A stretch of 64,000 bases of DNA from Rubellicoccus peritrichatus. GTDB taxonomy: Bacteria; Verrucomicrobiota; Verrucomicrobiia; Opitutales; Cerasicoccaceae. Below the pieces are notes generated by a model. That model did not search any database and had not been told where the DNA came from. It saw only the letters and a program-made list of their open reading frames with translations. The translations under genes and the position numbers were made by a program. Below are positions 57,779 to 62,173 of the stretch, piece after piece. Position 1 is the first letter of the stretch. Every line of letters begins with the position of its first letter. The DNA lies in NCBI RefSeq assembly GCF_033100135.1, contig NZ_CP136920.1:930001-994000 (forward strand). Direction: 5' to 3'.

Positions 57779-58282
57779 TCAGGGTGCGCGGATGGCTTCT
57801 TGCAAAAGCTTCAGCTGAGCGTTTATGTCCGTAGAGGGAATGGTCGCGGCCGGTTCCCAGAGTTCACTGCTTACCTCATAGATTCGCAGGCTTGGTATGC
57901 CCGCTTCCAGGGCATCCTTGGCTCCAATTATTTTGTCATGTTTAATGCCCGGTTTGATGGCAAGACCCCGGTAGGCACTTTTGGCGTAATAGCGGGCAGC
58001 TTCAGCCGCAGAATAATCGAGTGAAACCCAGACGAAGCGAATGTCTGCGTCCGCTTTTTTAAAAGCAGATTTCATCTCAATCATTGCCTCTTCGATAGCG
58101 TGGCAGTTAGGGCACCAGGAGGCAGTATAATAAAAAACGACGTAACGGGCTTCCTTGGGCAATTCAGCAGGCTTTAGCTGGTAGCCAGCCACCTGAACCA
58201 GCCTGCCCGAAAGCTGCTCACTGAGCCCTTCGACTGGCGAAGTGGTCAGGAGTAGAATGGCTAGGGCAAACTGGTTGAGCAT
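57779..58282 (-). CDS. Thioredoxin-like exported protein
   Basis: The 167-residue protein has a short N-terminal hydrophobic segment (FALAILLLTTSP) and a thioredoxin fold with YYTASWCPNCHAIEEAM (Cys57 and Cys60, CPNC active site). The cis-Pro region is AGIPSLRIYE. It is probably a periplasmic disulfide reductase or oxidase. Its start lies 35 bp after the stop of the TonB-dependent receptor on the same strand, suggesting co-transcription. The receptor has a CxxC in its plug that could be its client. Confidence 0.85.
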   Translation of the reverse strand: MLNQFALAILLLTTSPVEGLSEQLSGRLVQVAGYQLKPAELPKEARYVVFYYTASWCPNCHAIEEAMIEMKSAFKKADADIRFVWVSLDYSAAEAARYYAKSAYRGLAIKPGIKHDKIIGAKDALEAGIPSLRIYEVSSELWEPAATIPSTDINAQLKLLQEAIRAP

Positions 58283-58317: not shown

Positions 58318-60570
58318 TCAGAAGGCGATTTCGCAGCCTGCATAATAGGTGCGGGGCAGGCGCGGGCCGTAAACAAAGTCGCTGTCCCGGTCCGGGCCGG
58401 ACTGCAAATCGTCTTGAAAACTGTCGAAGAGATTCTGGATGCCGACTTTCGGAGTTATTACGGACTGGCCCACTTCGAAAGATTTGCTCAGGCCGATGTT
58501 GACGACCACGAAATTCTGCGAGTTGATCACGGCGGGTGTGGGGGCCTCACGGGCAACCTTCATCGAGCCAGTCCAGAGCAAGGCGGCGAAGGCATTGAAG
58601 GTCTCCGGGTTCTCATAGTTTGCCTGAATGACACCAGACAAGTCGGGGACTTTGTTGTAATGGCGGGAGAAGATGCCGGTGGCCAGCTCCTGGTCATCAT
58701 CGAACCGTGCCTGAACGTAGGCCAGTCCGGCTTCGAGACTAAAATCACGCGTGGGTTGCCAATTGGTCGTCCACTCAGCACCAATCACGGTAGATCCGCT
58801 GGTATTGAAGCGAGTAACGAAGTCGCGTCCCGGGCGGTTGGGATTTGCCTGAGGTGTGGTCAGATCGAAAGAGTCCTGTAAAATGGTGTAGAAGAGCTGA
58901 ACCGAGGTCACCACTTTGTGGTCCAAAGCATGTGGCGAGTAGTCGAAACCCACCGAAAAGGAGTAGGAGCGCTCTTCCTTCAAGTTCGGGTCGTTGAAGG
59001 TATCCACCGGCGTACCACCAAGGTTATCAACGTGCAAATCCTCGTCAAAGACCTGTGGTGCCAGGAAGCCGGTGGAAAAGCTGCCCCGAAGGGTCCATTC
59101 CTCGCTGGCAGTGTAGCGAACCGCAGCTCGGGGAGAGACGACAACGTCGCTGAGAGTGTTAGCCTTGTCCACCCGGAAGCCCAAAGTGAATTCCAGGGAA
59201 GGGTCGACGATCCAGAGGTCTTGCAGGTAGCCACCTACATTCTCAAAGCGACTGTCGTGCAGGGTGCTCAGGCGCTGCCCCTGGAAGTTATTATTGTAGT
59301 CCTGGATTTCATCGGACTCATATTGCACGCCCCATGTAATGATGTGCTGGCCCATAAAGATGTCGCCCAGGTCATAGTTGAACTGACTATCGAGAAAGAA
59401 AGCTGTTTCATCGGAGTTACCATATTGGTTGAGCGTGCCGGCCACGGCGTCTCCATCGACAGTGCCCTGGCCAAAGATGGTGTTAGCCACAGCAGCATCT
59501 GTCCCGCCTGTGGCAGCGCTACCGGCGGCCACACCGTTGTAGGTACCAGCGCTCAGATCGACCAACGAAGGATCGATATTTTCCGTACCACTGCCACCGT
59601 AAAAGCTGAAGCGATCAAGATAAACGAAACTGCCGTCGATTTCGAAGTCGAATTCATCGTTGACCTTTTGAATCCACTGCAGGCCGCCCCATTGGTAATT
59701 GGTGCGCAAGCCCTCGGCGATGTTGGCCTGCCAGGCTGGAGAATCCAACAGATTACCTCCTCGACGATCTTCGTATAGGTACTGATAGTTGACCCGTAGT
59801 TGGGTATTCTCGAAAGGATTTGACCAGGCGTAAAAACCCGCAACACCGTCCTCGAGTTGGGAAAGATCGGTGTAGTTGTCATTATTCAAATCCGCCGAAG
59901 CTTGCAGGGTGCCACTGCCGTAGGCGGAAACCTTCTCGGTCAAGGACGGTGAGACCAGACTGCCGAGGAATTCCAAATTCTGCGAAGGGGATCCCTTGAT
60001 TGACATATAGTCGTAGGAAAGTTTCAGCTCGTCCTGAAAAGGTTCGCGAGGAATGAGATTGATCACACCAGCAACTGCACCCGGACCGTAAAGGGCGGAG
60101 CCACCGCCCTTGACCACCTCGATGCGATCGACGAAAATCGTCGGTATCTGGTCGATGCCGTAAACACTGGCCAGACCAGTAAAAAGCTGCTGACCGTCAA
60201 TGAGCAACTCATTATAGTTCCCAGGTAAGCCCAACAGCTGAATCTCGGCTGTGCCACAGTTCTGGCAATTGTTTTCCATGCGAATGCCGTTGAATAGCTC
60301 GAGGGCCTGACCAACGTTATTCGCGTTGGCGACGAAGAAATCCTCGTTCGTCATGACTTCGGTTTTTATCGCAACATCCTGTATACTACGTGGAATGCGC
60401 GTTGCGGTGACCGTCATGATGACTTCGTCAAGTTCCTCGAATTCGGCATCATAGGAATCCGTTGCATCCTCTTTTGAGGCGGGCGCGGATGGTTCATCCT
60501 CTTGAGCAATAGCCGGGCAAACCCCGATGGCGTTCGCAAGCATGACAGCTAGCAGGTGTCTTAATCTCAT
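58318..60570 (-). CDS. TonB-dependent outer-membrane receptor
   Basis: The 750-residue protein has a signal peptide (cleavage after AIA-QE). A TonB-box-like EVIMTVTATRIPRS is near residue 49. The plug domain (about 60-185) contains a CQNCGTAEIQLLG segment (Cys102, Cys105), ending in the typical IEVVKGGGSALYGPGAVAGV. A 22-strand beta-barrel follows, ending ...PRTYYAGCEIAF with the terminal Phe. No N-terminal carboxypeptidase-regulatory domain. It is divergent from an MntR-type gene with three palindromes between, so a metal complex, probably manganese, is the likely substrate. The CxxC plug also occurs in some Bacteroidota receptors. Confidence 0.93.
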   Translation of the reverse strand: MRLRHLLAVMLANAIGVCPAIAQEDEPSAPASKEDATDSYDAEFEELDEVIMTVTATRIPRSIQDVAIKTEVMTNEDFFVANANNVGQALELFNGIRMENNCQNCGTAEIQLLGLPGNYNELLIDGQQLFTGLASVYGIDQIPTIFVDRIEVVKGGGSALYGPGAVAGVINLIPREPFQDELKLSYDYMSIKGSPSQNLEFLGSLVSPSLTEKVSAYGSGTLQASADLNNDNYTDLSQLEDGVAGFYAWSNPFENTQLRVNYQYLYEDRRGGNLLDSPAWQANIAEGLRTNYQWGGLQWIQKVNDEFDFEIDGSFVYLDRFSFYGGSGTENIDPSLVDLSAGTYNGVAAGSAATGGTDAAVANTIFGQGTVDGDAVAGTLNQYGNSDETAFFLDSQFNYDLGDIFMGQHIITWGVQYESDEIQDYNNNFQGQRLSTLHDSRFENVGGYLQDLWIVDPSLEFTLGFRVDKANTLSDVVVSPRAAVRYTASEEWTLRGSFSTGFLAPQVFDEDLHVDNLGGTPVDTFNDPNLKEERSYSFSVGFDYSPHALDHKVVTSVQLFYTILQDSFDLTTPQANPNRPGRDFVTRFNTSGSTVIGAEWTTNWQPTRDFSLEAGLAYVQARFDDDQELATGIFSRHYNKVPDLSGVIQANYENPETFNAFAALLWTGSMKVAREAPTPAVINSQNFVVVNIGLSKSFEVGQSVITPKVGIQNLFDSFQDDLQSGPDRDSDFVYGPRLPRTYYAGCEIAF

Positions 60571-60595
60571 AACTGTTTAAATTTTTAAAAAAGCA

Positions 60596-60615
60596 TATGT
60601 AGCCAGGGCTACATA
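60596..60615. promoter_or_regulatory. MntR-like operator 1
   Basis: TATGTAGCCAGGGCTACATA has perfect 9-bp arms around two bases. It lies 26 bp upstream of the receptor start. The TAGC...GCTA core matches the gammaproteobacterial MntR box (CATAGCxxxxGCTATG, as I recall it). Confidence 0.8.
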
Positions 60616-60638
60616 AAGGGTTAAAAAATAAACGAATA

Positions 60639-60654
60639 AGTAGCCAAGGCTACA
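60639..60654. promoter_or_regulatory. MntR-like operator 2
   Basis: AGTAGCCAAGGCTACA has perfect 6-bp arms (GTAGCC/GGCTAC) around AA. Centre 41 bp from operator 1. Confidence 0.75.
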
Positions 60655-60665
60655 AAATCGTCGCG

Positions 60666-60683
60666 ATGTAGCATTGGATACAT
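60666..60683. promoter_or_regulatory. MntR-like operator 3 (degenerate)
   Basis: ATGTAGCATTGGATACAT agrees with operator 1 at 14 of 18 positions. Centre 28 bp from operator 2, about 50 bp upstream of mntR. Confidence 0.6.
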
Positions 60684-60724
60684 ATACAGCTTGTCAACCC
60701 CCCTTTTATTGCTTTTTTAAAGAC

Positions 60725-61156
60725 ATGCCCGAATCCCAAGCGCAACACACCGCTATGCATCATGAGCGAGTACGTCGCCAGCACTCCGATGAGCTCGCCG
60801 AGGATTACGTCGAGGCAATTTACGAATTACAGCGCCAAGGTCAGCTTGCCCGCGTCATGAATCTACAGGAAATTTTTGGAGTTTCTCACGTCTCGGTTAT
60901 TCGAGCCCTGAAACGATTTGAAGGTCGGGGACTACTGACTCGCTCTCGTACAAAAGGCATACAATTAACTACAGCGGGTCGTAAAATGGCTAAAAATGCA
61001 GCTGAACGTCATGCATTGGTCGTCAATTTTTTGCTCAAACTCGGTGTTTCAGGTAGCCAAGCACAAATTGATGCAGAAGGTATCGAACATCACATAAGTA
61101 AAGAAACGATCGAGGCGATGCGTAAATTCATCAGGACTAATCAAATAGACTGTTGA
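60725..61156 (+). CDS. mntR: Manganese-responsive regulator MntR (DtxR family)
   Basis: From ATG at 60725 the protein has 143 residues. The winged helix-turn-helix (LARVMNLQEIFGVSHVSVIR, RALKRFEGRGLL) and the metal-site helix DAEGIEHHISKETIEAMRKF align well with E. coli MntR (DAEGMEHHVSEETL). In that family, Mn(II) binding makes the protein repress uptake genes. The frame upstream to 60674 lies within operator 3 and is not used. No mntH or sitABC transporter is in the window; the divergent TonB-dependent receptor is the obvious target. Confidence 0.9.
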   Translation: MPESQAQHTAMHHERVRRQHSDELAEDYVEAIYELQRQGQLARVMNLQEIFGVSHVSVIRALKRFEGRGLLTRSRTKGIQLTTAGRKMAKNAAERHALVVNFLLKLGVSGSQAQIDAEGIEHHISKETIEAMRKFIRTNQIDC

Positions 61157-61330: not shown

Positions 61331-62173
61331 TCAAGAATCAACACCGACCAAACGGATTCCGTCCGGCTCAATTTTTATCAGCTCTTGCTTATAGAGTTTT
61401 CCAATCGCCATTTTGTAAGCCTTTTTACTGGCTCCAAATTTCTGGGAAATAGCCTCAGGTGAGCTCTTGTCGTTGAGCGGAATAAAACCATTCGATGCGT
61501 CAAGTGCATCGAGGATTTCCCCAGCCAGGCCTGATACTTTACCGTAGCCAAGTTTCTTCAGAGATAAGTCAACCTTACCATCTTCACGGATCTTCTTAAT
61601 ATAGCCCGTAACCTTATCGCCCAAAGTCAGTTTTTCGAAGATATCACCTTTGTGAATCAGCCCCCAATGGGTTCCATTGATAACTGCATTTCTGCCAATA
61701 TCCGTCTCGTGGCATATAATGAGATCGACGGCGTCGCCTTCCCTGGCCTGAATTGGGTCATGCTGAAGAAATTTGTTGAGCTTACTGGACGCAACCAACC
61801 GGCCACTTCGCTCATCATAGAATACAACCACGACCTGCTTCTCGCCAACTTTCATCGGACTGCGTTGTTCGCGAAACGGGACAAGAATGTCTTTGGCTAA
61901 GCCCCAGTCCAGGAATGCGCCATAGTTACCGACGGAAACAACTTCCAACACGGTAACCTCACCAGCGACCGCCTTTGGCGTCTGCATGGTCGCAATGATG
62001 CGATCTTCCGAATCAAAATAAAGAAAGACATTGAGCTCATCGTAGAGCTTGCACCCCTCAGGCACCTCTTTACGCGGTAGCAGGATATCACCAAGCCAGT
62101 CTCCATCGACATAAATACCCCGGTCGAATATTTTCATAACGACGAGACGGTTCCATTCTCCAACAGCTACCAT
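61331..62173 (-). CDS. CvfB-type S1-domain RNA-binding protein
   Basis: The 280-residue protein starts MVAVGEWNRLVVMKIFDRGI like CvfB/YitL proteins, so the first ATG is kept. Several S1/OB modules follow: VLEVVSVGNYGAFLDWGLAK, INGTHWGLIHKGDIFEKLTL, YIKKIREDGKVDLSLKKL. The C-terminal winged helix is QKFGASKKAYKMAIGKLYKQ. CvfB proteins bind RNA and influence gene expression or virulence in Gram-positive bacteria; the role here is not known. Confidence 0.88.
   Translation of the reverse strand: MVAVGEWNRLVVMKIFDRGIYVDGDWLGDILLPRKEVPEGCKLYDELNVFLYFDSEDRIIATMQTPKAVAGEVTVLEVVSVGNYGAFLDWGLAKDILVPFREQRSPMKVGEKQVVVVFYDERSGRLVASSKLNKFLQHDPIQAREGDAVDLIICHETDIGRNAVINGTHWGLIHKGDIFEKLTLGDKVTGYIKKIREDGKVDLSLKKLGYGKVSGLAGEILDALDASNGFIPLNDKSSPEAISQKFGASKKAYKMAIGKLYKQELIKIEPDGIRLVGVDS

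Follow-up and report, generated by a model that had tools for sequence, protein, structure and literature searches.

The 154 bp between a TonB-dependent receptor gene and a divergent mntR gene in Rubellicoccus peritrichatus probably form a divergent, autoregulated promoter, through which a short E. coli-type MntR would control its own gene together with a receptor–thioredoxin operon for metal uptake under starvation. The region lies in a window of 64,000 nucleotides, the whole stretch of DNA that was analysed, which covers bases 930001–994000 of a single-contig genome; its features in window coordinates are:

57779–58282, minus strand: thioredoxin-fold protein, 167 aa, WCPNC motif, hydrophobic N-terminus (PF13905, E = 1.4e-7)
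58318–60570, minus strand: TonB-dependent receptor of the CQNC type (750 aa), with CQNC in a plug loop at residues 102–105
60571–60724: divergent promoter region of receptor and mntR, 154 bp, delimited from the sequence and the ORF starts
60598–60613: predicted operator 1, TGTAGCCAGGGCTACA, no mismatch to TGTAGCCNNGGCTACA
60639–60654: predicted operator 2, AGTAGCCAAGGCTACA, 1 mismatch to TGTAGCCNNGGCTACA
60667–60682: predicted operator 3, degenerate, TGTAGCATTGGATACA, 2 mismatches to TGTAGCCNNGGCTACA and 1 to TGTAGCNNNNGCTACA
60725–61156, plus strand: mntR, 143 aa from ATG, short E. coli-type homologue

From left to right the order is thioredoxin-fold gene, receptor gene, 154-bp region and mntR. 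We took the ATG at 60725 as the mntR start; the mechanically called ORF opens upstream, at a TTG at 60674. The co-oriented thioredoxin-like gene of the preliminary description does encode a thioredoxin fold and lies 35 bp downstream of the receptor gene on the same strand, a spacing and orientation that make it probable that the two genes form one operon. A simple scan of 60571–60724 found no sigma-70 consensus pair, and a search for tandem repeats at the locus returned none. A gene for a CvfB-like S1/winged-helix protein at window 61331–62173 heads towards mntR.

The three palindromes first described as TGTAGCC-N2-GGCTACA are all present in the region. They are best described as TGTAGC-N4-GCTACA, since the inner four bases vary among relatives, and in this form the copies carry 0, 1 and 1 mismatches. 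Within the window alone, allowing up to 3 mismatches gave 5 matches; shuffled sequences averaged 1.66, and 2 in 100 of them reached 5. These window-only statistics are weak, and we therefore relied on genome-wide and cross-genome tests. Exact GTAGCCNNGGCTAC occurs in only two places in the 5.8-Mb genome, both within 60571–60724. At up to one mismatch, TGTAGCNNNNGCTACA occurs in 7 places, three of them in these 154 bp (Poisson P about 1e-12) and the remaining four all within ORFs; at up to two mismatches there are 158 places versus 443 for the reversed control. The clustering of the palindrome at the receptor/mntR region is strong evidence against chance.

Sequence comparison confirmed that 60725–61156 encodes a short E. 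coli-type homologue of the MntR family. The 143-aa protein joins an N-terminal winged helix to a domain for metal binding and dimerisation, matched by Fe_dep_repress and Fe_dep_repr_C (PF02742, E = 3.6e-13; PF01325, E = 1.6e-7; both over cut-off), and has no third, C-terminal domain. Its score of 145.4 bits against NF008273, 'manganese-binding transcriptional regulator MntR', is under the cut-off of 153, so we class it as an MntR-family homologue and not as that equivalog. The motif DAEGIEHHIS, originally described as the metal-site helix of an MntR homologue, holds up in the alignment: EDYVE, RH and DAEGIEHH find their counterparts in 2h09, the E. coli MntR, and in 6kta. We take the Mn site to consist of an Asp and a Glu, both of the first helix, a His and an E-x-x-E-H motif, at positions known from B. 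subtilis MntR; the corresponding columns D, E, H, E, E, H are conserved, as judged by eye, in every one of the 16 short MntRs aligned. The search reports a single TAG inside the mntR match of locus L014 (G038:C2:1191324–1191731; G numbers denote genomes and L numbers loci).

Conservation of the palindrome in relatives is the main evidence that the sites are operators. In a sample of 54 related genomes, with short MntR counted at 100 bits or more, exact TGTAGCNNNNGCTACA was found in 12 of the 16 genomes that encode a short MntR and in 1 of the 38 that do not. The four short-MntR genomes lacking an exact box were G001, G008, G009 and G013, and the sole exact box in a genome without short MntR (G018) lay inside an ORF. 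Within 300 bp upstream of mntR, the box was present exactly in 9 of the 16 genomes and at up to one mismatch in 10, versus none for the reversed control; at that threshold it was absent from these 300 bp in the other 6. Exact boxes numbered 26, and 20 of them stood at mntR, porin/ytgABCD-like, feoB or homologous receptor genes; the other six comprised three at pstB–phoU, one before mutS, one before the gene of a 236-aa protein and one within an ORF (uptake genes were checked by tblastn; pstB, phoU and mutS were named by eye). Judged by this distribution, the box marks a regulon that follows short MntR across the order.

The genes opposite mntR differ between genomes. They encode an OprB-type porin and ytgABCD-like proteins in G003, G005, G009 and G007 (in the last to the contig end), only ytgABCD-like proteins in G004 and G036:C47, and FeoB in G012:C26, where the box is exact. 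Away from mntR, exact boxes were found at porin/ytg-like genes (G006, G030), at ytgA (G038) and at homologous receptor genes (G012:C39, G036:C6). Sites with one mismatch in G001, G006 and G008 precede a DtxR–feoB pair with mntR next after it, and G013 has a boxless porin-like gene close to mntR. In R. peritrichatus itself, the receptor–thioredoxin pair occupies the place of the family's porin, ABC or FeoB genes. The uptake gene adjoining short MntR thus seems, from these arrangements, to be exchangeable between genomes, which is a reason to assign the receptor a role in uptake. Of the expectation that the palindromes would recur in orthologous divergent regions, the part concerning the sites stood, in that they are kept at several mntR genes of the same family and precede DtxR–feoB in G001, G006 and G008; the part concerning the partner did not, as these family partners are porin or ABC genes and not the receptor, and the divergent mntR–receptor pairs of Sphingomonas (L117, L121) and of G143 have no TGTAGC-type box. 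Similarity to the receptor homologue adjoining short MntR in G143 (L213) came in two separate matches.

Exact boxes also lie between pstB-like and phoU-like genes at L074:4022, L075:4010 and L076:3980 (G003, G005 and G007, all of one genus), a possible link between phosphate and manganese control. Two further exact boxes in G038 lie at the gene of the 236-aa protein, which has no Pfam match (L082:4028), and at the mutS-like gene (L080:4001).

Homologous receptor genes with box copies just 5′ of the start codon were found in G012, G036, G068 and G206. A box like TATAGC-N4-GCTATA lies near the mechanically called receptor start at L104, L107, L109–L111 and L114, loci from Stenotrophomonas, Xanthomonas massiliensis and Luteimonas; the four Stenotrophomonas loci (L107, L109–L111) have TATAGC-N4-GCTATA, with the core as in R. 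peritrichatus. The box core was found near the receptor start in 7 of 75 scanned loci versus 1 of 75 for the reversed control. Divergent mntR–receptor pairs with a box occur in Cephaloticoccus (L108), Ereboglobus (L116, 1 mismatch) and Luteimonas (L114). The suggested search of relatives thus yielded boxes at homologous receptors; at up to one mismatch, none of the 7 sites in the R. peritrichatus genome lies at either of its two Nramp-like genes (ORFs at C1:3884920–3886221 and C1:5694867–5696210, 554 and 569 aa). Searching with tblastn beside mntR in 15 relatives (up to 6–8 kb on each side, shorter at contig ends) gave no match to the receptor. Nine other genomes of the same family gave no receptor homologue at E 1e-20, so the pairing of mntR with the receptor would be young or often lost.

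The agreement with the gammaproteobacterial MntR box also stood: the E. coli K-12 mntH promoter contains AAACATAGCCTTTGCTATGTTT, which has the TAGC-N4-GCTA core in common with our sites and is the target of a regulator of the same protein family. The flanks differ, being TG/CA in the window and CA/TG at E. coli mntH, and the predicted target in the window is a receptor operon. With the box tracking short MntR across the order and copies at the receptors of G012, G036, G068 and G206, the assignment of the sites at 60598, 60639 and 60667 as MntR-type operators, at which MntR would bind, is well supported.

The receptor assignment was borne out by PF00593 (E = 1.7e-28) and PF07715 (E = 7e-18), and the CxxC noted in its plug is the CQNC at residues 102–105. 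CQNC is invariant in 9 of 9 aligned receptors at the level of the order and in 13 of 13 from a broader set; the receptor homologue at L211 has no CQNC string. In an AlphaFold model built from 13 sequences (pLDDT 78.9, pTM 0.80), CQNC lies in a loop between plug strands 96–100 and 108–112, in a block with a pLDDT of 68. Fold searches placed Cir closest (2hdi, Z 40.6, 562 residues, 2.8 Å), then BtuB (1nqe, Z 39.8, 539 residues, 2.5 Å), with FyuA and many other TonB receptors close behind. The fold matches were to TonB receptors in general; OprC was among them, which is uninformative as to the ligand. An alignment-based genome scan recovered at least 523 receptor relatives among at least 593 candidate stretches, and the best 80 of these relatives range from Xanthomonadaceae and Sphingomonas through Acidobacteria and Bacteroides. 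Because the CQNC stretch was one of the two scan patterns, its frequency among those 80 loci is uninformative.

The residue two places past CQNC divides the receptors into CQNC-x-T and others. A short-type box or a nearby short MntR was found for 17 of 24 CQNC-x-T receptors versus 0 of 64 other CQNC rows, and an ORF with WCxxC follows directly after 18 of 25 CQNC-x-T receptors versus 4 of 65 others. The underlying 95 rows (25 CQNC-x-T and 70 others, 65 of which had enough downstream sequence) retain copies (L108 = L212; L122–L124, L126 and L127 repeat other loci) and near-identical Stenotrophomonas rows, which makes P values calculated from these counts too small. The window's thioredoxin-fold protein resembles the ORFs after receptors at Stenotrophomonas and Luteimonas loci; the thioredoxin domain was confirmed with Pfam for the window gene, L078 and L098 only. 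The proposal of a redox part in the same unit therefore stands as far as the association goes, and reduction of CQNC by the thioredoxin-fold protein would be its functional counterpart.

A quick tree built from 54 receptors pairs the window protein with its sister in G041 (SH-aLRT 99), which has the second box described below and no short box; the pair groups with a clade of 10 boxless receptors (SH-aLRT 95). The label 'short-MntR linked' needs 5 changes on this tree, 4 of which starred branches make obligatory, whereas shuffled labels needed 14.6 on average, so linkage to MntR was gained or lost several times. The count was made without nine rows that were fragments or copies, and L105, L145 and L172 had no ORF.

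A second palindrome, TTTTGA-N4-TCAAAA, lies at or near the mechanically called receptor start in G011, G041, Opitutaceae L113 and L115 and Pelagicoccus L118, at the receptors of two Acidobacteria (L158, L182) and, with 1 mismatch, in G075 (L215). The 25 CQNC-x-T receptors have the short box in 13 cases, the second box in 6, both in none and neither in 6; the six boxless ones lie in G143, G225, G233, G235, G236 and G237, all with a short MntR. Among other CQNC rows, 2 of 70 have the second box, each then followed by a WCxxC ORF, and the reversed second box matched 1 of 95 rows at up to one mismatch. Among 38 genomes compared, a short box at the receptor (10 genomes) always went with a short MntR of at least 78 bits, and none of the 8 genomes whose receptor has the second box gave a short-MntR match above 46 bits. 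Box type at the receptor follows short-MntR presence in 18 of 18 box-bearing genomes; the other 20 have a boxless receptor, no such receptor, or are copies, and the table of 10 versus 8, in which G206 and G227 are entered once, is uncorrected for kinship.

Away from receptors, the second box stands before ytgABCD-like genes (G011, G075), ytgB–ytgCR-like genes (G234), feoA–feoB (G047) and, in G241, a DtxR–feoB pair downstream of long mntR. It also lies between ytgA and long mntR, as an exact copy in G035 and as a one-mismatch copy in G010, G052 and R. peritrichatus (CTTTGACAAGTCAAAA, L053:7648), whose one exact copy is within an ORF. In a set of 16 genomes there were 19 exact places versus 4 for the reversed control; 7 of the 16 had been picked for a second box already seen at the receptor. 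Within 250 bp upstream at 22 long-MntR loci, it was found exactly at 1, at up to one mismatch at 4 and at up to two at 5, and its reverse at 0, 0 and 3, respectively. Across 103 genomes of the order, 121 exact places compare with 50 for the reverse, a count skewed by one genome with 18 places and, in the control, one with 13. Of 30 loci listed from this even sampling of the order, 6 were at metal genes (ytgA 2, feoAB 1, long mntR 1, receptor 2), and the other 24 gave no strong match to the metal-gene queries. The second box alone is not specific. Since it occurs at ytgABCD-like, feoB and long-mntR genes, we propose it as the operator of long MntR, an assignment kept provisional by its lack of specificity and its presence, at up to one mismatch, at only 4 of 22 long-MntR loci. 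Judged by the boxes it carries, the receptor seems to have switched between two metal regulons, and this supports a role with metals.

Besides the short MntR, R. peritrichatus has a long MntR of 221 aa and a permease–DtxR fusion. The latter, a permease with a fused DtxR-type domain, belongs to a ytgABCD-like ABC operon at about 5.1155–5.1204 Mb (L053:3485–8356), divergent from the long mntR. Chlamydia YtgABCD/YtgR has such a permease–regulator fusion layout, and its likeness is found in relatives too; unlike in Chlamydia, the ytg-like operons of several relatives are partners of the short-MntR box, and that of R. peritrichatus lies elsewhere, beside the long MntR. In R. peritrichatus the short MntR appears to serve the receptor as a local switch, with the ytgABCD-like operon adjoining the long MntR and another box.

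A closely similar arrangement was described in 2026 in Stenotrophomonas maltophilia Sm18, where orf2357–orf2358 form an MntR-regulated TBDR-pTFP module of receptor and periplasmic thioredoxin-fold protein (PMC13217887). Both have a CQNC receptor, a thioredoxin-fold gene directly 3′ of it, an MntR-type box and mntR nearby; on these shared parts, the window unit is a predicted member of the same kind of module, and the legend to Fig 6 of that paper includes Opitutales among the loci in synteny. It differs in that mntR adjoins the receptor gene divergently, three sites lying between the two, in WCPNC in place of the CAPC given for the thioredoxin motif (PMC13217887), and in that our search of the genome found no MntP-family protein; the R. 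peritrichatus receptor also appears, on the quick tree with its SH-aLRT supports only, to fall outside the Stenotrophomonas branch. In S. maltophilia, the operon was derepressed in a ΔmntR strain, Mn still repressed it in part without MntR, and strains deleted for receptor and thioredoxin genes showed no growth phenotype in the conditions used (PMC13217887). That paper likewise proposes a redox role for thioredoxin and receptor, and calls CQNC receptors 'restricted', whereas our best 80 of at least 523 scan matches are spread more widely. Relative to its main text, as far as available, the divergent three-site layout, the partner exchange at mntR and the second box appear to be new. Our literature search for CQNC with TonB found only this paper, and the available part of PMC7315648, from the literature on Verrucomicrobia and MntR, does not name TonB. 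MnoT of Burkholderia thailandensis, compared here by description only, is likewise a TonB-dependent receptor assigned to Mn2+ uptake; it works, unlike the window receptor, together with a T6SS-secreted Mn binder (PMC8602904).

The most serious alternative to Mn2+ import, which we rate a real if lesser possibility, is that MntR controls the operon and the receptor carries Fe2+, Zn, Cu or a metal–metallophore complex, in a joint answer to Mn and Fe starvation. The short box stands before feoB exactly in G012 and with 1 mismatch in G001, G006 and G008, and the second box does so in G047 and G241. The nearest solved folds, Cir and BtuB and then FyuA, are receptors with cargo other than Mn, and a pair of cysteines fits softer metals. 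The S. maltophilia reporter was active only when Mn and Fe were both low, a point for this alternative, but 80 nM Mn2+ abolished its expression (PMC13217887), and the short MntR has kept its residues at the aligned positions of the B. subtilis-type Mn site. The type of regulator and these expression data lead us to favour Mn as the cargo; it may instead be Fe2+ or a chelated metal, since feoB has both boxes.

It is very improbable that another regulator, such as the long MntR, governs the array and that the adjacent short mntR is incidental: R. peritrichatus does encode a second MntR-like protein and the permease–DtxR fusion, but TGTAGC-N4-GCTACA was absent from 250 bp upstream at 22 of 22 long-MntR loci at up to two mismatches, and the box type tracks short MntR in all 18 genomes with a box at the receptor. 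Nor is it credible, beyond a slight chance, that the palindromes serve as attenuator or terminator hairpins in the receptor's leader RNA and not as DNA operators. The leader does fold well, at −39 kcal/mol (z −4.0), and two of three terminator-like stems in 60500–60800 lie on these palindromes, but such folding is expected of any palindrome, no Rfam family matched, and the same box precedes several unrelated genes and follows MntR presence among genomes.

Under control by short MntR, as we prefer to read the locus, MntR dimers loaded with metal, most likely Mn2+, would occupy the two good sites and the weak one in a metal-replete cell and shut off mntR and the receptor–thioredoxin operon together. 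Metal starvation would open the operon, the receptor would carry free or weakly chelated metal across the outer membrane with energy from TonB, and the exported thioredoxin-fold protein would probably keep the plug CQNC pair in, or return it to, a reduced, metal-competent state. Cysteine is an unusual ligand for Mn2+, which we count against this explanation. Also against it stand the S. maltophilia deletions without phenotype and the partial repression by Mn there in the absence of MntR, the 6 of 16 short-MntR genomes with no box in the 300 bp before mntR, the 6 boxless CQNC-x-T receptors in genomes with a short MntR, the sister receptor in G041 with no short box, and the nine family genomes that gave no receptor homologue. 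A bolder version, which we hold doubtful, treats the CQNC-x-T receptor and its thioredoxin as a portable system that imports bare metal ions under redox gating and has been rewired repeatedly between the short-MntR box and the second box; in it the thioredoxin would reduce CQNC so that the pair can hold and then release Mn2+ or Fe2+.

Few cases are known in which bare Mn2+ is passed across the outer membrane when porins are insufficient. The locus suggests that R. peritrichatus has a metal-starvation uptake unit of the kind first described in 2026, and it yields two testable operator sequences together with a simple cassette of mntR, operators, receptor and thioredoxin. With the switch between boxes, it would add a second phylum and a second kind of box to the evidence that CQNC receptors serve in metal starvation, evidence that is independent of S. 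maltophilia, where deletions gave no phenotype.
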